From the NCBI GenBank assembly GCA_017453065.1, contig JAFTKW010000018.1, positions 46,901 to 110,900 on the forward strand: a stretch of 64,000 nt of DNA. The letters run 5' to 3'. This document shows, piece after piece, positions 43,027 to 53,294 of this stretch. The notes under the pieces were generated by a model. That model was not told the origin of the DNA. It was given only the letters and a program-made list of their open reading frames with translations, and did not search any database. Both the position numbers and the translations under genes were made by a program. How positions within the stretch are numbered: the first letter of the stretch is position 1; each line of letters begins with the position of its first letter. The stretch comes from Lachnospiraceae bacterium (lineage in GTDB: Bacteria > Bacillota > Clostridia > Lachnospirales > Lachnospiraceae).

Positions 43027-43047
43027 TTTATACAACTAAGAAATAGA

Positions 43048-43078
43048 AAACCCTTCAGTGATGAACTGAAGGGTTTTT
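43048..43078. terminator. Bidirectional terminator
   Basis: ACCCTTCAGT (43050-43059) pairs perfectly with ACTGAAGGGT (43065-43074); A-run before and T-run after. It ends both the NlpC/P60 gene and the minus-strand pilus-like cluster. Confidence 0.9.
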
Positions 43079-43082
43079 GGTA

Positions 43083-44147
43083 TTAAAAAACAAGTTTCTT
43101 TTTCATCATTTCAGGGTTGGTAGCAAAGGAAAGAGCTGTGTCTGCTGTAATGCGTCCATCCTGATACAGTTTTAGTAAACTGGAGTCCATAGAAATCAGC
43201 CCTTCGCTGTTGGAGGAATAGAGAATACCTTCCAACTGTGGGGTCTTATTCTCACGAATAATGTTTCGAATCGCAGGATTTACAACCATGATCTCAAAGG
43301 CAGGAACCATTTCGCCATCAACAGTAGGAACAAGCTGCTGGGATACAACTGCGGACAGTACCATGGAAAGCTGAATTGCGATTTGACGTTGCTGGTTTGC
43401 GGGGAACACGTCGATGATACGGTCGATGGTGTTCGCAGCACCAATGGTGTGCAATGTTGAGAAGAGCAGATGGCCTGTCTCAGCTGCCGTCATAGCTACT
43501 TCGATGGTTTCATAGTCTCGCATTTCACCGAGGAGAATGACATCTGGACTTTGGCGAAGTGCTGCTCGAAGTGCAGAAACATAATTTTCGGTATCTACGT
43601 TGATTTCTCGCTGGCTTACGATGCTCTGTTCATGCTTGTGAAGGAACTCCAAAGGGTCTTCCAAGGTAATGATGTGGCCTTTGCGAGTTTTGTTAATGTG
43701 ATCAATGATACAAGCCAAGGTGGTGGATTTACCACTGCCGGCAGCTCCTGTGATGAGTACCATGCCCTTTTTGCGGTCACCAAGTTCAATGATCTGCTGA
43801 GGAATAGAAAGCTCAGATGGATTAGGCAAAGAGAAGGTAATAACACGGATAACAGCAGAATAAGAACCTCTCTGTTTGTAGGCACTGACACGGAAACGGG
43901 ATACTCCTTGTAGTGCGAAGGAGAAATCGTCATCGCCTACCTGCTCTAAAATTTGAATGCTCCGGCTGGCCAAGTTGTAGATTTCATGAAGTAAAATCTG
44001 TGTGTCGCCAGGAAGCAGTCTGGTGTCGGACTCCTGAAGAACAGATCCATTCTTTCGTATGGAGACTGGAAGACCAGCCACGATAAATACGTCAGAAGCT
44101 CCTTCTTCTACTGCTCTTTTAAGAATGTCTTGAATTGTATTGCTCAT
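43083..44147 (-). CDS. pilT: PilT-type retraction ATPase
   Basis: 354 residues from the ATG at 44147, chosen because GAAAGGTGA lies 8 bases upstream. It is a hexameric GspE-family ATPase that powers pilus retraction. Walker A is GAAGSGKST (134-142), the Asp box is LEDPLEF, Walker B is VILLGEMRD, and HTIGAANTIDRII the His box. The C-terminal AIRNIIRE (292-299) is the signature of PilT rather than PilB. It is the last gene of the minus-strand cluster, and ends at the shared terminator. Confidence 0.94.
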   Translation of the reverse strand: MSNTIQDILKRAVEEGASDVFIVAGLPVSIRKNGSVLQESDTRLLPGDTQILLHEIYNLASRSIQILEQVGDDDFSFALQGVSRFRVSAYKQRGSYSAVIRVITFSLPNPSELSIPQQIIELGDRKKGMVLITGAAGSGKSTTLACIIDHINKTRKGHIITLEDPLEFLHKHEQSIVSQREINVDTENYVSALRAALRQSPDVILLGEMRDYETIEVAMTAAETGHLLFSTLHTIGAANTIDRIIDVFPANQQRQIAIQLSMVLSAVVSQQLVPTVDGEMVPAFEIMVVNPAIRNIIRENKTPQLEGILYSSNSEGLISMDSSLLKLYQDGRITADTALSFATNPEMMKKKLVF

Positions 44148-44157
44148 ATATATTGTT

Positions 44158-44637
44158 TCACCTTTCTGATTCATCAAAGGTCACGGTTTGCCATGCAATG
44201 ATTTGATAATAATGGTCTGTGTCCATATTGGCTGTCGAAGGAATTTCGATTACGACGGACAGCATTCGAGTTTCACTAAATGGAAGTTGCCAAGAGAGGG
44301 TCAGATGATCTTCCGCTACTTGACTTTCAATGGTAACATTTTCTATTTCATTATCTAAGGAACTTAGTGTTTTGTCAAAGTATTCTTGCACATTCTGGCT
44401 ATTGGATGCGTGCTTTGCCAGAATAGCGTCCAGATGAGCCAATACAACCTCGGATTGATTGCAGACTTCGTAATAGGCCTGTTTTTGCTGGGATAGCTGT
44501 CTGCTGAAATCAATGTCGTTTTTGGCACTGGAGAGAGCGAGAGTTGCAAAGATAGCAATGCTCAAAACCAAAAAGATAACCAGTAAAGAAGAGGTACCCA
44601 TATTTAAAAAGGAGATAGGATCTTTTTTGGATTTCAT
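44158..44637 (-). CDS. Single-pass pilus-cluster protein
   Basis: 159 residues. N-terminal helix at about 14-36 (SLLVIFLVLSIAIFATLALS) and an outer helical-to-beta domain (SRQLSQQKQAYYEVC, LTLSWQLPFSETRMLSVVIE). There is no typical G-FTLIE cleavage site. The ATG overlaps the stop of the preceding gene (ATGA), AGGAGG is 7 bases upstream, so translation is coupled. It looks like a minor pilin-like or assembly protein; no family recognised. Confidence 0.75.
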   Translation of the reverse strand: MKSKKDPISFLNMGTSSLLVIFLVLSIAIFATLALSSAKNDIDFSRQLSQQKQAYYEVCNQSEVVLAHLDAILAKHASNSQNVQEYFDKTLSSLDNEIENVTIESQVAEDHLTLSWQLPFSETRMLSVVIEIPSTANMDTDHYYQIIAWQTVTFDESER

Positions 44638-45119
44638 CGCTGCACCTCCTGTGGAAAATGATGCTTGATGTCAAGCGCATATATTTGCTCATGAGTAGTC
44701 AAATTCTCAAAAGAAATCTGTGCCTCAATGGTACGGAAAGGGTCTGCGTTTGAGGAGACATCTTGAGAAATATCCTGAAGAGTGAAGGCCAATTGAAAAC
44801 TGGCTTGTGACTGTGTACAGGATTCAAAATTGCCGTCATAATAAAGGGCTACCTCTGGAAAAGTGGTCTGAAGTGCCATGGGATACAAGATTTCCAGCCG
44901 TTTTTTTATCTCTTCTAAATCGTCAGCAGTAGTGAGAATCTCTGCAATGCCACTACACTCGCTGACAGCAAAATTGAGTGCCTGAGAAGATTCACTCATA
45001 GTATGGGCTTTCACAAAGATTTGCACGCAAACAGCACTTGCTACGGAAAAGAACAAAATAGCAAGAATAAGTTCTAATAAAAATATGCTAGAAGACTTGA
45101 CCTGTTTTTGCTGACTCAT
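44634..45119 (-). CDS. Pilin-like minor protein
   Basis: 161 residues. N-terminal segment SSSIFLLELILAILFFSVAS resembles a prepilin helix including a Glu near position 5 of the helix, but the Gly of the prepilin peptidase site is missing. The outer domain is mixed alpha/beta and has two Cys (SECSGI, ESCTQS). It lies 4 bases after the preceding gene and overlaps the next by 4 bases. Function inferred only from the neighbouring pilC and pilT. Confidence 0.7.
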   Translation of the reverse strand: MSQQKQVKSSSIFLLELILAILFFSVASAVCVQIFVKAHTMSESSQALNFAVSECSGIAEILTTADDLEEIKKRLEILYPMALQTTFPEVALYYDGNFESCTQSQASFQLAFTLQDISQDVSSNADPFRTIEAQISFENLTTHEQIYALDIKHHFPQEVQR

Positions 45120-45123
45120 TGGA

Positions 45124-45615
45124 TTACCTTTCTGTATAACTGTGTAAGCCTACAACTGTAGATACGCTTCGGCCGTTGGCATCTATGCAAGAGAGACGAT
45201 ATAAATCTGGCTCAATCTGCTCCACCAGGAAATCAGACACTACTGCAATAGCATTTCCCATGTTGAGAGCAGGCTCGATTTGATTTTTGATGAACAGCTC
45301 TTTGAGCGCACCATCGTGGTAGTAAATGTATGTGGTATAGCCTTCCTTGTCGTCCTGATGATAGAGAGCAAGTGCATCTGTGCCTTCTATTTCAGTGACT
45401 GAGACAAAGGCTTTACAGTCACTGTGATGTATTTTTTCGCTGACATAAGAAAGAGAAGTTCGGGAAACGTTGTTCAGCGAGGACGCGGTAGTGGTGGATT
45501 CGTAGATTCTGGTTGCCAATAAAATAACCACTACAGCGGAAATCGTAAATACAAAAAACAGTATGATAGGAAAGAGGAAATCTATGATGTGGTTGTGGGC
45601 TTTGGTCTGTTTCAT
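45124..45615 (-). CDS. DUF4860-like membrane protein of the pilus cluster
   Basis: 163 residues. N-terminal helix at about 12-35 (LFPIILFFVFTISAVVVILL), then an extracytoplasmic beta-rich domain (LSYVSEKIHHSDCKAF, LALYHQDDKEGYTTYIYYH). It resembles DUF4860, an unknown domain that accompanies pilus-like genes in Clostridia. Its GAGGAGG ribosome site lies in the last codons of the preceding gene, with a gap of one base. Confidence 0.72.
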   Translation of the reverse strand: MKQTKAHNHIIDFLFPIILFFVFTISAVVVILLATRIYESTTTASSLNNVSRTSLSYVSEKIHHSDCKAFVSVTEIEGTDALALYHQDDKEGYTTYIYYHDGALKELFIKNQIEPALNMGNAIAVVSDFLVEQIEPDLYRLSCIDANGRSVSTVVGLHSYTER

Positions 45616-45616
45616 A

Positions 45617-45952
45617 TCACTGTTCCTCCTCTATGATAGTTACATCTGGATAAATATTGTCCCCAAGGAAGCGATAGTCTACATAGAACAGCTCCTGATT
45701 GTAGGTGAGTCCATATTGCTTGTGGAGTACCTCCAAAGAATCTGGATATTTGCCCTCCAAAGAGTAGTAGTGGACGATGTTTCGAGTAAGTGCGTTGTCC
45801 AAACTTTCACGTTGACGTTCTCTAGTGCTTTCAGAGATAGAGCCAAAACCAGCTACAAAGAAAAAGATAATCACGGCAAATAAGCCTACAGATAAAAGAG
45901 GCTTAAGAGATATCTTGTCTTTTTGACCCATTTTAAAACGGTTGTGACTCAT
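45617..45952 (-). CDS. Small pseudopilin-like membrane protein
   Basis: 111 residues. Helix at about 17-37 (LLSVGLFAVIIFFFVAGFG) and a short outer domain with NIVHYYSLEGKYPDSLEVL, which resembles the repeated Tyr-Pro-x-Ser-Leu segment of GspG-type pseudopilins. No prepilin peptidase motif. AAAGGAG lies 8 bases upstream. Function inferred from context. Confidence 0.7.
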   Translation of the reverse strand: MSHNRFKMGQKDKISLKPLLSVGLFAVIIFFFVAGFGSISESTRERQRESLDNALTRNIVHYYSLEGKYPDSLEVLHKQYGLTYNQELFYVDYRFLGDNIYPDVTIIEEEQ

Positions 45953-45985
45953 ACAAAACTCCTTTGTTAGTAAGAGATATTACAG

Positions 45986-47038
45986 TTAGATACTGGACAT
46001 GATTCCAATCAGTGGAAGCATGACGGAGAGCAGAATAATGCCAACAAATAGGGAAAGGCTGACAACTAAGGTAGGCTCTAAAATGGAAAGTAGATTGTTG
46101 ATACGACGGTCCACTTCCTCCTGATAGAGGGAAGCCACATTGTCCATAACCTGATCCATGGTTCCAGTGCGGGCACCTAAGGAAATCATTCGAGCGTATA
46201 CACCAGAGAAGATACCGCATTGGTGCATTGCTTCATAATAATCCATACCCTCTTCAATTTTGGCAAAGCATAAATCCAGTTTTTGCTGGAAGAAAGGGTC
46301 CGAATTCAAACTGCCTGCTAGGTGGAGGCTCTGTGTGGTGTCAATACCACTCTTTAGTGTAAGAGAAAGACCACTGGCGAATCTGCAGGCGGCAGTATTT
46401 TCAAAAATGGTACGAACAAAAGGAATTTTGTAGCCAATTTTGTGGAATAGGTTTTGACCAGATTTGGTTTTGCATCCGTAGATGATGATACCCACCACAA
46501 CTACAAGCAAAGCAATAAACACAACAGAATATCGATTAATGATATTGCCGATGTCCATCAAAGTTCTGGAGAAACCGGTCATCTCTGTTCCTAACTGAAC
46601 AAAGACCTGATTGAAGATAGGCATAACCTTTACAAGAAGAACTACTATTACTACAATCATCATTCCAGCCATAATCATAGGGTATGTGATAGCGTTGCGA
46701 ATGCTGACAGAGATAGAATCTTCACGTTCATAGTGGATGGTAAGCTGCTGCATAACTTCATCTAAAGTACCAGTTTTTTCACCGATGTCTGTCATGCGGA
46801 GCATATAAGTTGGGAAGAGACCACAAGATTCAACGGCCTGATAGAAACTGCCAGTTTCTAAAAGGGTATCATAAATGGTCTGCAACAATTCTTTGTCTCC
46901 CTCAGATTGGGCATCTTCCAGCATAATAGAAATTCCCTCAATGGAAGAGATGCCTGATTTCAGTATCAAGGCAATCTGTCCACAGAAGCTGGAGACTTCT
47001 GAATTTGTAAGTGGGGTCCTGTCGGTATGTTTGCTCAT
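45986..47038 (-). CDS. pilC: PilC/GspF-type inner-membrane platform protein
   Basis: 350 residues from the ATG at 47038 (CGGAGG upstream). Two tandem T2SSF domains with the repeated pattern: first about 20-140 (ISSIEGISIMLEDAQSEGD, YMLRMTDIGEKTGTLDEVM), second about 220-345 (GIDTTQSLHLAGS, YARMISLGARTGTMDQVM). Three membrane helices at about 145-170, 190-210 and 320-345. It is the membrane platform of pilus or type II machines and couples to the cytoplasmic ATPase; here the partner in the window is PilT. Confidence 0.92.
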   Translation of the reverse strand: MSKHTDRTPLTNSEVSSFCGQIALILKSGISSIEGISIMLEDAQSEGDKELLQTIYDTLLETGSFYQAVESCGLFPTYMLRMTDIGEKTGTLDEVMQQLTIHYEREDSISVSIRNAITYPMIMAGMMIVVIVVLLVKVMPIFNQVFVQLGTEMTGFSRTLMDIGNIINRYSVVFIALLVVVVGIIIYGCKTKSGQNLFHKIGYKIPFVRTIFENTAACRFASGLSLTLKSGIDTTQSLHLAGSLNSDPFFQQKLDLCFAKIEEGMDYYEAMHQCGIFSGVYARMISLGARTGTMDQVMDNVASLYQEEVDRRINNLLSILEPTLVVSLSLFVGIILLSVMLPLIGIMSSI

Positions 47039-47063
47039 GTTAATCCTCCGTTGTATCAAGACA

Positions 47064-48005
47064 TCAATAGGAATATTTCACAGTGTAATTGGAGCCGTCG
47101 CCAATATATTTGGCAACTGCCTTGCTACTGTTTCCAGCAGCTAAAGTTGGGTCCATGAGGGACCAGCTTTTGCCATCAAATTGGATGATGCCATCTACCC
47201 AGCCAGTTTCCTCCAGATAGACACTAATCCATGCGTGATATACTTTGCCAGAGTATCCAACTTCCAACTTTGTAGGAATGCCCTGCGAGCGAAGCAGAGT
47301 TGTCATCAGTGCTGCGTAGTCAAAGCAGATTCCTTTTTTGGTAAGTAACGTTTTGTCTGCATCTGGAACGTAATCCACAGGAGCAGAAGCAGCCAGTTCT
47401 TCGTCATAAATGATATTGGTAATGACATAATCGTAAACTTGACAGAGGTAGTCTAAGTTGTTGGTAGATTGCTCCGAAATACTGATGCCTAAAGCCACTG
47501 CTGCGGACTCTGCGGTGTACCAGGAGTAAACATTGGGGTAGAGGAAAGGTCTGAATTCATCTGCCAAAGTCACATCCAGCACATGAGAGCAAACCATAGC
47601 ATACATGTCGTCGGATACATTCTCGTAGATATTAATTTGATAACTGCCATCTCCGCTGGAGAGAGGGAAGGTTCGATATTCATTGGTAAACAGCGTGTAG
47701 GTGTAGGTAACGCCAGAAGGCACCTTGATCTGTACCTTGGCTTTGGCCGCATCACCCAAATAGCGTGCCATGACATAGCCTTCGCTGGCGTTTGTAGTGT
47801 CGATGGCAGCCAAATCATTACTATATACTTCTGTCCCAACAGATTCGGGGTTTAAAAAGGCGCGAATAGTATCTCTGGGAGGGGCATCTGGATCGTGATA
47901 TTGCGAATATCCACCGTTGCCACCACTAGATCCACAGGCGGCGGTAAAGGAGCATAGTCCAAGCACAAGAGAAAGTATGATTGCAAGATGTAATTTTCGT
48001 TTCAT
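47064..48005 (-). CDS. Transglutaminase-like lipoprotein
   Basis: 313 residues. Signal peptide with lipobox FTAAC (Cys24), so it is anchored on the outside. The transglutaminase-like core lies at about 185-300 with the papain-type triad Cys227 (KKGICFDYAAL), His257 (YHAWISV) and Asp285 (WSLMDPTLAA). The first 180 residues form a beta-rich domain. Such proteins act as proteases or cross-linkers on surface targets; a substrate among the neighbouring pilus proteins is possible but unproven. It lies between pilC and the ECF-sigma pair. Confidence 0.88.
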   Translation of the reverse strand: MKRKLHLAIILSLVLGLCSFTAACGSSGGNGGYSQYHDPDAPPRDTIRAFLNPESVGTEVYSNDLAAIDTTNASEGYVMARYLGDAAKAKVQIKVPSGVTYTYTLFTNEYRTFPLSSGDGSYQINIYENVSDDMYAMVCSHVLDVTLADEFRPFLYPNVYSWYTAESAAVALGISISEQSTNNLDYLCQVYDYVITNIIYDEELAASAPVDYVPDADKTLLTKKGICFDYAALMTTLLRSQGIPTKLEVGYSGKVYHAWISVYLEETGWVDGIIQFDGKSWSLMDPTLAAGNSSKAVAKYIGDGSNYTVKYSY

Positions 48006-48040
48006 ACCTGGATACTCCTTTCGTAGAATTTAATCGTGAA

Positions 48041-48781
48041 CTAATTGTTTGGTGTAAGAACTAGTAACAGTTCATTGCCTGCCATATCAGGAATACATAC
48101 GTTGATTGAAGAAGCAGGGCTTTCAAAAACCACGCAGCCATTTTCTGCGTCATAGGAAATAGGAGAGATGATATCCCCATTTGCGTCATTTGCATAAATG
48201 GATGCATAATCAATACCACTTTCAGAGTCACTCACATATAGATACACTAATTTGTTGGAAACCTGACTACTGATAAAGGAAGGAGCCGTAGTGTCCATTT
48301 GAGTGACCATAATAGTATGGTGTATTTCCTGCTGATTAAAAAAGGTAATACAAATATCCATCATGCCATTTTTGGTTGGCTCTATGGAGAAGGTTCGTAT
48401 TCCGGTATCGTAGACAGGGACATGCAAGCCGTTTTGGGTAGCACTTACCTGCACAGGGAAAATACCTGTTACATGAACTTCGTAGACTGGACTTTGTGCA
48501 TCTCCAGTTTTGTCTGTGACAGAATAGTTTCCTCTTACAAATAAAAGAGGAGAAAGAAGCAAAAGAATGATTACAATTACCAGAATAGAACGAATGGTAA
48601 TGAATCGTTCCTTTTTGTAGTTGGCATAGTCTTCAATAACAGCCAGGGGAACTGCATTGGAAGAGGTCCCCACGACAGTAAATACGTTTTGAAGCATTTG
48701 ATCTGCGGCAAGAGGTGACAGGGTAGCACCTTTGCTCAATTTCTTTGATTTAAAATTGGAAAATCTATTGTTTTTTTTCAT
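48041..48781 (-). CDS. Single-pass membrane protein, possible partner of the ECF sigma factor
   Basis: 246 residues. Cytoplasmic N-terminal ~62 residues, a helix at about 64-82 (ILVIVIILLLLSPLLF), and an extracytoplasmic beta-sandwich-like domain (VYEVHVTGIFPVQVS, MDTTAPSFISSQVS, LYVSDSESGIDY). It follows the sigma-factor gene by 15 bases, the usual place of an anti-sigma factor, but no zinc-finger HxxxCxxC motif is present. The anti-sigma role is an inference. Confidence 0.7.
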   Translation of the reverse strand: MKKNNRFSNFKSKKLSKGATLSPLAADQMLQNVFTVVGTSSNAVPLAVIEDYANYKKERFITIRSILVIVIILLLLSPLLFVRGNYSVTDKTGDAQSPVYEVHVTGIFPVQVSATQNGLHVPVYDTGIRTFSIEPTKNGMMDICITFFNQQEIHHTIMVTQMDTTAPSFISSQVSNKLVYLYVSDSESGIDYASIYANDANGDIISPISYDAENGCVVFESPASSINVCIPDMAGNELLLVLTPNN

Positions 48782-48796
48782 GAAAAATCTCCATTA

Positions 48797-49357
48797 TTAT
48801 ACAGCAATCATTTTGCGTAGCTTACTAAGACCGCTATTAAGCAGTCGTTTTACGGTACTTTTGCTGGTGTGAAGCATGCTAGCAATATCATCAATTCTCA
48901 TATTGTTGTAGTATCGGTAGATGAGAGCCAATGACTCGTTGTCTGGCAGAGACATAATCTGGTCGAAAATATACCTGCGCTCATCGATGACAACCACTTG
49001 ACTTTCAGGGGTGTCGTCACTGACAGGCTGGATGGAAGGGTCGTCATCCAGGGAAAGTACATTTTCGGAGAAGGTTTTGCCTTGCCTTTCCTGCATGTTA
49101 AAGCAAACGCGAAAACTAATCTGATTTAGCCAGGAGATAAAAACCATAGGATCTTTCAGAGTGGCTAAATTTTTGTATACTAATATGTAAATTTCCTGCA
49201 GTGCATCCTGCGCCAGATAATTGTCCTTGAGATAATTGCAGGCGTAAGCATACTGCTTTTGGTAGGTGGCGGCATATAACTCCGCAAAGGCGTCACTGTC
49301 ACCTTGCTGGGCGGACCGAACCACCTTGGACAAGTATTTATAATCTAAATTAGACAT
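48797..49357 (-). CDS. ECF-type RNA polymerase sigma factor
   Basis: 186 residues. Sigma region 2 at about 14-80 (FAELYAATYQKQYAYACNYL, AQDALQEIYILVYKNL) and region 4 at about 130-183 (LPDNESLALIYRYYNNM, IDDIASMLHTSKSTVKRLL). No region 1.1 or 3. It is followed by the possible anti-sigma gene and then by the pilus-like genes, which could be its regulon. Confidence 0.92.
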   Translation of the reverse strand: MSNLDYKYLSKVVRSAQQGDSDAFAELYAATYQKQYAYACNYLKDNYLAQDALQEIYILVYKNLATLKDPMVFISWLNQISFRVCFNMQERQGKTFSENVLSLDDDPSIQPVSDDTPESQVVVIDERRYIFDQIMSLPDNESLALIYRYYNNMRIDDIASMLHTSKSTVKRLLNSGLSKLRKMIAV

Positions 49358-49408
49358 GACATTCTTCTTTCGGTGTGAGAGTGGTCTTACTGGAGCAAAT
49401 TCAAGGGC

Positions 49409-50092
49409 TTATTCGCTAAGTCTTGCGTTGGCCAAAGAGATAAGGCCGTTGATGCTTTCAGCATCGTCAGAGCCACTAAAACTGGAGCCAAGACGATATG
49501 CGATAGCATGATGACTGGAGTCGGAATTGTACTGTTTTATTTTGCTCTCAACACGCTCTGTAAAGATGTCCATGTGACTTTCAGAACTGTTTTCAAAAAT
49601 AGCAAGATATTTATTTCCATCGTTACGACCTACAAAGCACAGGTCTACAGAAGACAGTTTCAATATATTAGAGAAACTTTTGATTAGGATGTCACCCTGT
49701 GCACGATCGTACAATTTGTTGGTTTCATCCAAGTTAGTTAGTTCAAGCATGATACAGCCTAGGTTGGATGGAAGCGTTTTGCCTTTGTATTTTTCAATAA
49801 GGGAATCACAGCTATAGCGATTGGCGATACCAGCCAGTGGATCTGAATGCACGGCATAACCTAAATCGTGATAATCTTTTTTGAAGGTGGCATGGAAAGT
49901 GAAATCTAGAAACATAAAAATGTAAGACAAAAGAAAATAAAGCCACAAAATGGCACAAAGAATCGTGATTCGTGTATTGTTAGATACCATGCGATAAATT
50001 TCCGCATTGGTCAGCACAGTTAACAAGGCAACAACTGTCAAAACCAGGTATAAGATTAATTGAAGTGTTTTGTACAATTTGAAATGTTTCAT
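49409..50092 (-). CDS. Degenerate GGDEF-domain membrane protein
   Basis: 227 residues. Two membrane helices at about 9-30 and 42-64, then a GGDEF fold (SDPLAGIANRYSCDSLIEKY, MLELTNLDETNKLYDRAQGD). The active-site loop at 158-162 reads DGNKY rather than GGDEF, and the usual D.LTGL start reads DPLAGI. It is thus unlikely to make cyclic di-GMP but may bind a nucleotide or partner. It is first in the cluster with its own TTGGAA-17-TATAAT promoter; an ACGGGGGA ribosome site precedes it. Confidence 0.85.
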   Translation of the reverse strand: MKHFKLYKTLQLILYLVLTVVALLTVLTNAEIYRMVSNNTRITILCAILWLYFLLSYIFMFLDFTFHATFKKDYHDLGYAVHSDPLAGIANRYSCDSLIEKYKGKTLPSNLGCIMLELTNLDETNKLYDRAQGDILIKSFSNILKLSSVDLCFVGRNDGNKYLAIFENSSESHMDIFTERVESKIKQYNSDSSHHAIAYRLGSSFSGSDDAESINGLISLANARLSE

Positions 50093-50146: not shown

Positions 50147-50175
50147 ATTATACCAAAAACGACACTATATTCCAA
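50147..50175 (-). promoter_or_regulatory. Sigma-A promoter of the sigma/pilus-like cluster
   Basis: On the minus strand TTGGAA (50170-50175), 17 bases, perfect TATAAT (50147-50152), about 55 bases before the GGDEF-like gene. Confidence 0.8.
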
Positions 50176-50321
50176 TGAAAAATGCTGTGAAAAAGACTTT
50201 TGCAAAAAAAATAATTTTTTTTTAAATTTTTCTGGACCTTTTTTCCTATATGGAGTGTCTTTACTTATGAAAGCGTCAAATAGACGTAAAGAAAAACTAG
50301 AATTAGGAAGAGGATAAAATT

Positions 50322-53294
50322 ATGAGAAAGACTTGGAAAAAGACACTTGCTTCATTGTTGGCATTGGCTTTGATTGTGGGAACATGGTCAGAGGGATTTG
50401 TAAATGTTAAAGCTAACGAAGAAGAGAACACCACAGCAGTGGTTACTGTTACTGCAAACAGTATTGCAGATCCTATCGTGTATGATGGACAGGAGCATTC
50501 TGCGGGTGTATCTGTTACAGTGGAAAACGCAACAAACGTGAAGTCTGCGGTGGACTTCTGGGGAAATACAACATATTCCTTCCAGGCAAATGGAGAGAAA
50601 TATCGTGTTGTAATCAATGGATGGGATGAAAAGAGCTTGGCAAAAAGAGTTGTCAATGTTGGAGATACAGAACTCATCCCTAACGCAGTAACTGTTGAAA
50701 AGCAGGGTAGCAGGGGATCATGGTCTTCTACTTCTGAAGTTGCAGTGACTTACCAGAATGGTTCTGCAACAGTGGTTCCAGCAACTCGTGCGATGGATTT
50801 CTTCGTGGCCAATCCAAATGGATGGGGATATATCGCTGTTGGATCTGGTAGCATTACAGGTAGCGTACTTGAGGCTTGGAGAGCACACGGCTTGCTTGGA
50901 ACAGAAATCATTCGCTTTGCAGATGGCTATAGCACATTGCCAGGCGCATATTCTATTTCTTATCCAGCTAGCTACCCAAGCATTGAAGTAAACAATGTGA
51001 CATATACATACGATCCAGCTTGCAATAGAGCAAATACTTATTCTATTCAGTGGACAAATGTGAAGGCTGTAAAAGAAACATTTAGTAATTTTATCTACCA
51101 TTGCAATGGTACAGTTAGACTTCAGGATGAAAATATCTGGAATGTAGTATTTAATGTTGCTGAGCCAGGTGCGGATCTTGCAGCAGTAAGCACAGCTTCT
51201 TTGGTGGAAGGTACTTCCATTTCCGCGCCAGCAGTTGCTGAGACAAAAGAAGTAAACGGCAAAAAATATGTATTTACTGGATGGTGCACTGATGCAGCAT
51301 GCACAACACCAGCATCTATCAGCACTCTTTCCACAGATACAAATTACTATGGTAAATATGTAGAAGTTCAGACTCTTACATTGACACCAGCATTCACAAC
51401 AGCTACATATGATGGATATACACATGTAGTTAACAGCTTTGTTACAACAGAAGTGAACGGACTTACAGTATCTGGTCTTAGCGTATATGCGGAAGGCAGA
51501 GATGCAGGTTCTTATGATATTGCAGTAGAGGGTAGCGCAGTAGTAACAGATGCAGCAGGCAACGATGTAACAAAGTATTACGACGTAGTAGTTGCAGATG
51601 TTGATTTGGTAATCGCTAAGAAGGCAGCAACCATTACTTCCGGTTCTGCTACTTCCGAATACACAGGTGACATTCTTACAAATCATGCAGTTGAAATGGA
51701 AGGATTCTTGGAAGGTGAAGAACCAACCGTTACAGTTACTGGATCTCAGAAGATGATTGGTTCTAGTGACAATACATTCGAAGTTGCGAACTTGAGCGAC
51801 AACTACAATGTAACTTATACCTATGGTAAGTTGACAGTTACTGCCATTGATGGATTGGTAGTTAGCTTCGCAGATATTACAAAGACTTATGACGGAAAAG
51901 CAATTACTGGTTCTTATACAGTAAATGAAAAACTTCTTCCAGGTCATGCTGTAGAAGTAGAAATACCAAGCATCACAGATGTAGATACAGTTGTATATGG
52001 CGAGACAATTAAGATTGTAAACGCTGCAGGTGCTGATGTTACAGATCATTATGCAAATCCTACAGTGGTTCCTGGCACACTTACTGTAAATCCAATCGAA
52101 GGTCTTGTAATCACATTTGCAGATTACACTAAGACATACGATGGAAATACATATGTAGGTGAATATACTGTAGAAGGCCTTCTTGAAGGACACACTATCA
52201 TCATCAAAGCTCCTTCTATCAAAGAAGTTGGTACAGTAACAAATACAGCTTCTTATGAGATTTTTGAAGGCACAAAGAATGTTACAGATTTCTACAAAGA
52301 CGTAACAGTTAATGAAGGTACACTTACCGTTAACAAGATTACAGGAGCATCTATCACATTCGCTAATATTACAAAGGACTATGATGCACAGGAACTTGTT
52401 GGTACATTTAAGGCAGAAGGTTTCCTTGATGCGCACAATGTTGTAGTGGCTACTCCAGCTAGCATTACAAATGCGGGCGATGTAACAAACACAGGTGCTT
52501 ATGAAATTCAGGACGCTGAAGGAAATGACGTATCCAAATACTATGATACAATCACAGTTACAGATGGTAAGCTTACTGTAAATCCACTTAAGGTAACAGT
52601 AAAAGTTCAGGGTAATGTAGTTAATGTATACTACACAGGATATGAACTTGCTTCCAGAGGATATGATGTAACATCTATCAGCAGTGATCTTTATACTGAT
52701 GCATACTTTACTTTCAGCGGAGATGCAGAAGTTACTGCAACAGCAGACAGCTACTATGCATACGCTATGGGACTGAAAGCAGATCAGTTCACAAACAACA
52801 ACGGAAACTTTGACGTTACATTCGAAGTAACAGATGGCTATTTGAAGATTTACTACTTAGAAGGTGTTTCTCCAGCACGTGAAGATGGTACTGACACTCC
52901 AGCTGCAAATGAACCAGAAGTTCAAGAACCAGAGGTAACAGAACCTGAAGTTCAAGAACCAGAGGTTCAGGAGCCAGAGGTTGAAGAGCCAGTAGTAGAA
53001 GAGCCAGTAGTAGAGGAACCAGTAGTAGAAGAACCTGTTGCTGACGAAGTGGATCAGAACACAGAGCCAGAGGTTGATGTTGAAGTAGTAGGTGATGACA
53101 CAACTACAGAAGCAAATGACAACCTGGTACAGATCGAAGATGAAGAGACACCACTCGCTAACATGGATTTGGATGGAGATGGAAATGGTCCTATCTTCTG
53201 GATCCTTCTTGCAGGTGTACTCGCAACAGTTACATTGTTTATCTTCTTCGTAATCGCTCGTCGTAAGAAAGAAGAAGAGGAAGAACAGGCTTAA
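50322..53294 (+). CDS. Large repeat-built cell-surface protein
   Basis: 990 residues. Signal peptide to about 32 (VGTWSEGFVNVKA). Residues 33-290 are an unrecognised domain; 290-345 resemble an InlB B-repeat (YVFTGWCTDAACTTPAS). Residues ~345-760 carry four to five MBG-like repeats, each beginning near TYDG/DYDA (KTYDGKAITGSYTVNE, KTYDGNTYVGEYTVEG, KDYDAQELVGTFKAEG) and ending LTVN. A nine-unit Pro-Glu stalk (EPEVQ/EPVVE) and a C-terminal helix with tail RRKKEEEEEQA follow. No LPXTG is present; DEETPLA lies before the helix. The gene sits opposite the pilus-like cluster with divergent transcription. Confidence 0.88.
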   Translation: MRKTWKKTLASLLALALIVGTWSEGFVNVKANEEENTTAVVTVTANSIADPIVYDGQEHSAGVSVTVENATNVKSAVDFWGNTTYSFQANGEKYRVVINGWDEKSLAKRVVNVGDTELIPNAVTVEKQGSRGSWSSTSEVAVTYQNGSATVVPATRAMDFFVANPNGWGYIAVGSGSITGSVLEAWRAHGLLGTEIIRFADGYSTLPGAYSISYPASYPSIEVNNVTYTYDPACNRANTYSIQWTNVKAVKETFSNFIYHCNGTVRLQDENIWNVVFNVAEPGADLAAVSTASLVEGTSISAPAVAETKEVNGKKYVFTGWCTDAACTTPASISTLSTDTNYYGKYVEVQTLTLTPAFTTATYDGYTHVVNSFVTTEVNGLTVSGLSVYAEGRDAGSYDIAVEGSAVVTDAAGNDVTKYYDVVVADVDLVIAKKAATITSGSATSEYTGDILTNHAVEMEGFLEGEEPTVTVTGSQKMIGSSDNTFEVANLSDNYNVTYTYGKLTVTAIDGLVVSFADITKTYDGKAITGSYTVNEKLLPGHAVEVEIPSITDVDTVVYGETIKIVNAAGADVTDHYANPTVVPGTLTVNPIEGLVITFADYTKTYDGNTYVGEYTVEGLLEGHTIIIKAPSIKEVGTVTNTASYEIFEGTKNVTDFYKDVTVNEGTLTVNKITGASITFANITKDYDAQELVGTFKAEGFLDAHNVVVATPASITNAGDVTNTGAYEIQDAEGNDVSKYYDTITVTDGKLTVNPLKVTVKVQGNVVNVYYTGYELASRGYDVTSISSDLYTDAYFTFSGDAEVTATADSYYAYAMGLKADQFTNNNGNFDVTFEVTDGYLKIYYLEGVSPAREDGTDTPAANEPEVQEPEVTEPEVQEPEVQEPEVEEPVVEEPVVEEPVVEEPVADEVDQNTEPEVDVEVVGDDTTTEANDNLVQIEDEETPLANMDLDGDGNGPIFWILLAGVLATVTLFIFFVIARRKKEEEEEQA
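52911..53045 (+). repeat. Nine 15-base tandem repeats coding for a Pro-Glu stalk
   Basis: In-frame units encode EPEVQ, EPEVT, EPEVE, EPVVE and EPVAD. DNA identity between units is high enough (GAGCCAGTAGTAGAA recurs) that copy number could vary by slippage, changing stalk length. It is coding, not a CRISPR. Confidence 0.9.

Follow-up and report, generated by a model that had tools for sequence, protein, structure and literature searches.

The Com operon is composed of one ATPase, a platform, a main pilin, and minor pilins. ComGC is described in PMC7212644 (Sheppard et al. 2020). PMC6916266 (Pelicic 2019) presents the type IVa pili of monoderms as marked by pilins, PilMNO, and PilT-driven retraction. 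According to PMC12019362 (Yen et al. 2025), only one motor is encoded by most systems, and many of those with one motor perform extension as well as retraction; for PilT, in contrast to the extension ATPases, contact with PilC is predicted to occur via the AIRNLIRE motif. In PMC9815625 (Hughes et al. 2022), PilT is reported to be needed for extension of the mannose-sensitive hemagglutinin (MSHA) pilus. No PilT-only system appears in the examined survey passages of PMC6668835 (Denise et al. 2019), which covers type IVa and IVb pili (T4aP, T4bP), MSH, the type II secretion system (T2SS), ComM, Tad, and archaeal systems. Here, we describe a ten-gene cluster found in a 64,000-nucleotide stretch (further referred to as the window) of the genome of a Lachnospiraceae bacterium (contig JAFTKW010000018.1, positions 46,901 to 110,900), which probably encodes a minimal, Com-like machine of the type IV filament type, proper to single-membrane Clostridia and having PilT as its sole motor.

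The genes are arranged head to tail on the minus strand, from 50092 down to 43083, and encode a GGDEF membrane protein (ggdef), an extracytoplasmic function (ECF) sigma factor, its single-pass partner, a transglutaminase-like lipoprotein (TG), the platform PilC, four small proteins designated G, J (DUF4860), I, and K, and PilT (Table 1). The first-pass annotation of this DNA had counted nine genes; its own list held ten, each of which was recovered in place. The degenerate GGDEF protein, the ECF sigma factor, TG, PilC, and PilT that it had named were confirmed by Pfam and TIGR matches. The two components by which a type IV filament system is recognized, i.e., an ATPase and a PilC/GspF platform, are both present in the window (T2SSE and T2SSF matches in Table 1), the ATPase being missing from the cluster-bearing genome G465 discussed below (genomes, contigs, and loci are referred to by the handles G, C, and L, G000 being the source genome).

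Among the described systems, we infer that this machine would work most like the Com pilus (comGA-GG, comC), with which it shares one ATPase, one platform, a short main pilin, several minor pilins, and a single-membrane host. Weak ComGC, ComGF, and ComGG matches were found among members of the small protein families from cluster loci, and no PilM, PilN, or PilO was recognized among the ten window genes in Pfam/NCBIfam scans (no genome search with those models was made). However, its motor is not a ComGA: the window PilT scored 423.7 bits with TIGR01420, as compared with 138.5 bits with the ComGA model NF041000 (cut-off 300) and 122.1 bits with PilB. With the TadA-family model it reached 50.2 bits (cut-off 373.15), so it is not TadA/CpaF, and its TIGR01420 score and AIRNIIRE motif place it in the PilT/PilU family (Walker A GAAGSGKST, Walker B GEMRD). 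Further differences from the Com pilus are that a peptidase gene belongs to the cluster only in locus L104, that the prepilin sites are eroded, and that a transglutaminase-like lipoprotein is added. The monoderm type IVa pilus (PilB, PilT, PilC, PilD, PilMNO) resembles the cluster in its PilT and PilC homologs and in the class III signal of the L104 J and I proteins, but differs in that no PilB-like match was found in G000 and in 29 of the 52 cluster-bearing family genomes, nor any canonical pilin in the 24 PilB-less cluster genomes searched. The MSHA pilus of Vibrio cholerae is unlike the cluster in that its pilins are processed and an extension ATPase belongs to the system. What the two may have in common is a PilT which contributes to extension in addition to retraction (PMC9815625). 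Likewise, the Tad pilus has a single motor performing both strokes (PMC12019362), as proposed for the cluster, which differs by having PilT and one PilC instead of TadA and TadB/TadC; a separate Tad-like locus is present in G000.

The assignment of PilT as the only motor was examined at the genome level. The source genome (2.73 Mb in 45 contigs, 84.7% complete) contains three T2SSE matches over the cut-off, i.e., the cluster PilT, a PilT paralog, and an ATPase which we take to be TadA-like from its size and neighbors, without a Tad-model scan; the T2SSE profile search gave no PilB-like match. As this genome is incomplete, relatives were brought in for the question of PilB and canonical pilins, from a family sample of 150 genomes and a phylum-wide sample of 398 genomes, PilB being called at a best T2SSE match below 1e-100 and PilT at a TIGR01420 match below 1e-60. 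Among the 29 PilB-less family genomes with DUF4860, 23 are near-complete (at least 90% complete, at most 5% contaminated), and in all 23, where the cluster itself was examined, no PilB was found. Canonical N_methyl pilins were not detected in G000 (at E 0.01), nor in any of the 24 PilB-less cluster genomes (the 23 near-complete ones and G000), as opposed to four out of four PilB-bearing controls. Thus, the earlier claim that PilB is missing held, and no complete pil operon was found elsewhere in G000 or these 23 relatives, neither a PilB-like ATPase nor a canonical pilin being found.

Among the 81 PilB-less family genomes, PilT occurs in 28 of the 29 with DUF4860 and in 5 of the 52 without it (Fisher p=1.4e-15; this and the other Fisher p-values for the PilT/PilB/DUF4860 association ignore kinship). 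The proposal that PilT is the only visible motor of a dedicated machine is therefore well supported at the genome level, since PilT follows the cluster where PilB is missing. In four of these five PilT-bearing, DUF4860-less genomes (G001, G008, G022, and G143), the PilT departs from the GEMRD motif and cluster genes were not found around it, two of the stretches being short contigs; in the fifth, G147, a contig ends in a PilB-like fragment. Three PilB-bearing genomes of the family sample have no PilT. An association between DUF4860 and PilB was also looked for and rejected, the two being independent among the 150 genomes (with versus without PilB: 23 and 29 genomes with DUF4860, 46 and 52 without it; p=0.86).

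For the comparison of gene neighborhoods, 60 cluster loci were examined (61 including the window): 40 from 39 family genomes, 13 from the phylum-wide sample, and 7 others. The clusters of five DUF4860-positive family genomes (G006, G039, G052, G075, and G092) were left out of the locus reading. The loci were picked via DUF4860, so J is present in all of them by construction. DUF4860 itself occurs in 52 of the 150 family genomes (about a third) and in 14 of the 398 phylum-wide genomes, the window's genome included and G465 falling below the cut-off. It was revealed that G, I, and K are present in all 61 loci, PilC in 60 (the one absence being a contig end), TG in 55 (some of the six absences also being contig ends), PilT in 52, and the sigma factor in 8. 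The G-J-I-K set thus recurs with TG, PilC, and PilT in Lachnospiraceae and other Clostridia, usually in the order TG-PilC-G-J-I-K-PilT, which was found across several families. Some loci depart from this order, with TG displaced, inverted, or not found, or with PilT in reverse orientation (L072), separated from the other genes (L048), or leading the cluster (L104). In a separate scan of named genomes by PilC, limited to the best 80 of 232 loci, i.e., those nearest to the window PilC, 36 loci read TG-C-G-J-I-K-T. The named genera among these best 80 include Faecalicatena, Blautia, Dorea, Extibacter, and Lactonifactor.

It should be stressed that the cluster PilTs keep their functional residues, with the Walker A pattern GxxGxGK and GEMRD in 52 of 52; as for the AIRN motif, its nine most frequent variants (43 of 52) retain an AIR-type pattern with single-position changes. 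The TG catalytic triad is also kept in all aligned rows (54 of 55) except one, which is gapped. These residues, preserved across several families, argue against the cluster being a decaying remnant of a type IVa pilus operon after the loss of PilB, a view to which the motor-less G465 cluster and the eroded prepilin sites could be fitted and which we consider highly improbable. Moreover, the non-cluster PilTs of G000 and G096, two genomes with a cluster PilT and no PilB, have lost such residues (Walker A GSGRT, altered GEMRD). In total, eight non-cluster copies are intact and keep GEMRD, and six others (from G000, G022, G008, G096, G001, and G143) depart from it, three of them keeping the GE pair. 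In a quick tree, 51 cluster PilTs grouped together (Shimodaira–Hasegawa-like approximate likelihood ratio test support, SH-aLRT, 92), as did 14 non-cluster copies (90); the L104 cluster PilT and the non-cluster copies of L089 and L090 fell outside both groups, and a single clade for all cluster PilTs was not rejected (approximately unbiased test, p-AU 0.36).

Nine of the 61 loci contain a cluster without PilT. Among the six PilB-less family genomes of this kind, five (G031, G037, G041, G080, and G128) carry an intact PilT at another place. In G149, PilT occurs in a second cluster and PilB is present as well, and G291 has PilB and other T2SSE genes. The PilT-less clusters L043, L047, L110, and L116 (and L045) are located in a setting unusual for a pilus cluster, with neighbors which presumably are rpoB/rpoC and rpsL/rpsG/fusA, as named from sequence. 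The non-cluster PilTs lie in a block which we read, from sequence features, as lepA, hemW, (in some genomes) a sigma factor and an HD-GYP-like gene, and PilT, followed by what we take to be yifB/comM and dprA in G031, G037, G041, G000, G096, and G100, and further off in G087. The block copy is intact in G100 and G087, where PilB and a cluster PilT are both present. The G000 paralog, a 308-amino acid (aa) open frame in this lepA-to-dprA block (C11, 103659-104564; L003:1396-2322), reads GIGGSGRTT for Walker A and IMIGDLNN where intact copies have GEMRD.

The proximity of the non-cluster PilT to presumed comM (yifB) and dprA genes in G031, G037, and G041 (gene names assigned from sequence features), together with the Com-like composition and the weak ComGC, ComGF, and ComGG matches, would fit a DNA-uptake pseudopilus, i.e., a Clostridia counterpart of ComG in which PilT replaces ComGA and DNA is passed to ComEC. 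We judge this somewhat unlikely. ComEC was found in 149 of the 150 family genomes, but it is equally common in genomes without the cluster, and so its presence does not discriminate; in addition, the comM-like gene of G080 lies several genes off, and the G128 contig is too short to show comM.

The four small proteins appear, from their sequences, to be type IV pilins with an eroded peptidase site. Pfam and NCBIfam scans of the window proteins were uninformative apart from DUF4860, and the evidence comes from the alignments and from locus L104 (G356, another family). There, J starts with KGYTLVELL and I with KGFTLVEVM. With the Pfam N_methyl model, I scores above the cut-off (26.7 bits) and J below it (16.1 bits), J being recognized by DUF4860 (54.4 bits); G matches ComGC below the cut-off (E=6.6e-4, 19.8 bits, cut-off 75). 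Across the 61 loci, I keeps E+5 in all, with Ser at −1 in 19 and Gly in 12, and K keeps the Gly in 60. In the alignments, no prepilin site at the membrane helix was seen in G, nor in J outside L104; G has invariant Tyr, Glu-Gly, and Tyr-Pro positions. K gave weak ComGG (5 of 38) and PilX_N (2 of 38) matches, and scans of alignment members gave scattered weak pilin matches amid many chance matches (among the 25 families listed in the longer tables). The I profile also caught a pilin belonging to a PilB locus (L091), in which G-1 and E+5 are both present. Sequence searches of the PDB with the G and J profiles returned nothing relevant; with L104 I and J, geopilin was reached at no better than E 0.12-0.19, and with L104 G nothing was found. 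Accordingly, the earlier statement that no pilin is present stands for canonical pilins in G000, and requires correction insofar as the four small proteins would themselves be eroded ones.

The L104 operon (L104:6758-12736) reads PilT-PilC-G-J-I-K-PilD-TG, with a 268-aa prepilin peptidase (PilD) directly after K (L104:11004-11810); no PilB-strength match was found in G356 (best 2.7e-53). This operon is likely the ancestral form. By position, its peptidase is the only A24 match of the family and phylum-wide searches lying within 10 kb of a cluster. The first-pass annotation had seen no peptidase, which is true for the window cluster and not for the genome: the genome search it had proposed found neither pilB nor N_methyl pilins, and returned two peptidase A24 matches above the cut-off, in open frames 140 and 161 aa long, each located close to the TadA-like gene. 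As a separate observation, the Tad-like locus of G000 (C21, 10552-17559) contains the two short A24 peptidase genes as separate genes. In the phylum-wide sample, A24 matches were found in 10 of the 13 cluster genomes, the remaining three being G369, G485, and G465. G369 (98% complete) and G485 (92%) represent two species of one genus and have the full cluster, whose PilT is their sole T2SSE match over the cut-off, and no A24 match at E 0.01. Of all the genomes, these two most strongly hint that pilins can function without being cut.

These genomes also bear on the view that PilT is the retraction half only, with extension performed by TadA/CpaF or occurring spontaneously and the pilins cut by Tad-type peptidases. 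The Tad-like ATPase and short A24 peptidases of G000, as well as the wide occurrence of A24 in cluster-bearing family genomes (see below), would agree with it. Nevertheless, in G369, G485, and G381, the cluster PilT is the sole T2SSE match over the cut-off, hence no TadA was found there, and the first two also lack an A24 match (a peptidase is present in G381), which makes this view decidedly improbable. A more far-reaching proposition, i.e., that Clostridia have a class of type IV filament-type machines driven by a PilT-family motor alone, with pilin homologs never cut by a peptidase, is put forward here tentatively, as a possibility; if true, it would break two rules held for the superfamily, namely that the motor is of the extension type and that the subunits are matured by a peptidase.

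Several observations weigh against the proposed PilT-driven, Com-like machine. The pilin fold of G and J is predicted from sequence, and in a scan of the 41 G proteins of alignment A1 (L104 excluded), ComGC was absent from the 25 families listed out of 37. An A24 match is present in 51 of the 52 DUF4860 family genomes, so I and K may be cut by a peptidase from elsewhere. PilB is present in 23 of the 52 DUF4860 family genomes, and a PilB-strength match in 6 of the 13 phylum-wide genomes with the cluster (none in 7). In G137 (81% complete), the cluster is present but no PilT exceeds the cut-off. Finally, G465 (100% complete; L105) has PilC-G-J-I-K without TG, and neither a T2SSE ATPase nor an A24 peptidase was found in it, which points either to a motor-free role of the cluster or to its decay there.

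In the PilT-driven machine as we picture it, PilC would form the platform, a hexameric PilT the motor, G the main subunit, and J-I-K a tip-like complex capping the filament, with the transglutaminase-fold lipoprotein on the outside. PilT would dock on PilC via AIRNxIRE and turn it using ATP, and the pilin helices would leave and re-enter the membrane in the form of a short pseudopilus or piston spanning the wall, PilT performing either both strokes or the power stroke only. The transglutaminase-like enzyme might then act on, or link, whatever the machine reaches at the surface. We infer that a filament may be formed, as well as its direction of movement and its cargo; most likely, the machine would handle a substrate at the surface (protein or DNA) across the wall, and would not serve in twitching.

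Apparently, the cluster is a conserved, undescribed variant of type IV filament machines; a literature search (DUF4860; type IV pili with Lachnospiraceae, transglutaminase, or Blautia), covering mostly open-access texts, found no account of it. It touches the questions of whether PilT is capable of assembly in addition to disassembly and whether cleavage is required for pilins to be moved, for which the genomes with PilT as the sole ATPase of its class, those in which no peptidase was found, and one ancestral-looking relative are natural tests. DUF4860 would also gain a role, as would PilT genes of common gut bacteria (Blautia, Dorea, and Faecalicatena among them) which are likely to be taken for retraction motors.

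Table 1. Features of the pilus-like gene cluster and its divergent neighbor in the window
Feature	Coordinates	Strand	Remarks
GGDEF membrane protein (ggdef)	49409..50092	-	First gene of the operon; Pfam GGDEF 2.3e-10; two hydrophobic stretches by eye
ECF sigma factor	48797..49357	-	TIGR02937 64.9 bits (cut-off 42.9)
Single-pass partner of the sigma gene	48041..48781	-	No family over cut-off
Transglutaminase-like lipoprotein (TG)	47064..48005	-	Pfam Transglut_core 6.2e-19; triad Cys227-His257-Asp285 intact
PilC/GspF-type platform	45986..47059	-	Pfam T2SSF 1.5e-41; single full-length copy
Pilin-like G, putative main subunit	45617..45952	-	No prepilin site; in 61/61 loci
Putative minor pilin J (DUF4860)	45124..45615	-	PF16152 8.6e-25
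Putative minor pilin I	44634..45119	-	Glu at +5 kept, Ser at -1
Putative minor pilin K (GspK/PilX/ComGG-like)	44158..44637	-	Gly ahead of hydrophobic stretch kept
PilT, only motor ATPase of the cluster	43083..44177	-	TIGR01420 423.7 bits (cut-off 319.1); T2SSE 1.1e-43
Terminator-like hairpin, operon end	43047..43077	-	13 pairs; pattern scan
Sigma-70-like promoter site	50175-50147	-	Pattern scan
ECF-like promoter TGGACC-N-GTCTTTA	50233..50263	+	Points to the divergent surface-protein gene; putative function
Divergent secreted repeat protein	50322..53294	+	990 aa; C-terminal IEDEETPLA-helix-basic tail

With regard to regulation, the promoter at 50147-50175 and the terminator at 43048 given by the first-pass annotation were both found by pattern scan, the only method used for such calls in the window; the promoter-like matches (22, as compared with a mean of 16.8 expected by chance) are barely above the background, and the terminator-like ones number 9 versus 4.9. 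In the window, the GGDEF motif is degenerate (DGNKY), and in nine relatives with a cluster-adjoining ggdef gene it reads GGNKF, GGNEF, GSNEF, or GGNDF. The ggdef gene is accompanied by the sigma factor and its partner in relatives. For the partner, Pfam/NCBIfam scans gave no family over the cut-off, and those of two relatives gave none at E 0.01. Of the 37 partner-bearing loci among the best 80 of 232 PilC loci, 36 have the partner next to ggdef, sigma, or both, and it is possibly a membrane-bound regulator of the sigma factor.

The control of the cluster by this ECF factor, also proposed earlier, is only partly borne out. The full head (ggdef, sigma, and partner) lies upstream in 33 of the best 80 of 232 PilC loci (in 19 together with PilT, and in 12 with no PilT within the stretch covered), but the sigma factor is present in only 8 of the 61 cluster loci (all three genes over thresholds in 7), and the ECF-like promoter points away from the pil genes. 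Another regulator family was found in 8 of the 61 loci, one scanned member of which has BTAD, winged-helix, and GGDEF domains; in L052 it occurs together with the sigma head. The ECF sigma factor in the operon, the GGDEF or BTAD-GGDEF proteins near several loci, the peptidase-site erosion, and the two full-cluster genomes in which no peptidase was found could all be reconciled with a non-filament membrane signaling complex, in which PilT and PilC pull uncut pilin-like proteins, sense contact, and feed GGDEF and the ECF sigma factor. This is improbable in our opinion, given that the core persists in the many loci without the sigma factor and that L104 has processed-type pilins and PilD.

The element upstream of ggdef, considered at first as the operon's own promoter, was dropped as such on account of its orientation, which is that of a divergent ECF-like promoter. 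In that direction, the element resembles the ECF promoter type. The first search pattern was too tight (two matches) and was widened after inspecting the sequences; a loosened form of the element TGAACC-N-GTCTTA gave 17 matches over the 2.21 Mb of locus sequence, as compared with 4, 1, and 3 in three mononucleotide shuffles, a count which is not an independent test since the pattern was derived from the same loci. Sixteen of these 17 elements (window included) lie 63-266 bases from the ggdef start and are directed away from it; the 16 element-bearing loci constitute a minority of the 45 ggdef heads. It is the only recurrent ECF-like promoter found. The ECF control is lineage-specific and may be aimed at the divergent surface-protein gene, that of the 990-aa protein being a possible target of the sigma factor.

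By a simple pattern, a common anchor motif was found in the divergent frames of only 5 of the 45 heads, some of these open frames probably not being genes. An IEDEETPLA-like motif before a membrane helix is common to the divergent proteins of the window, L045, L192, L195, and L196, and this tail could be a sorting signal; in some relatives, the divergent protein, of about 110 aa, seemingly consists of the anchor part alone.

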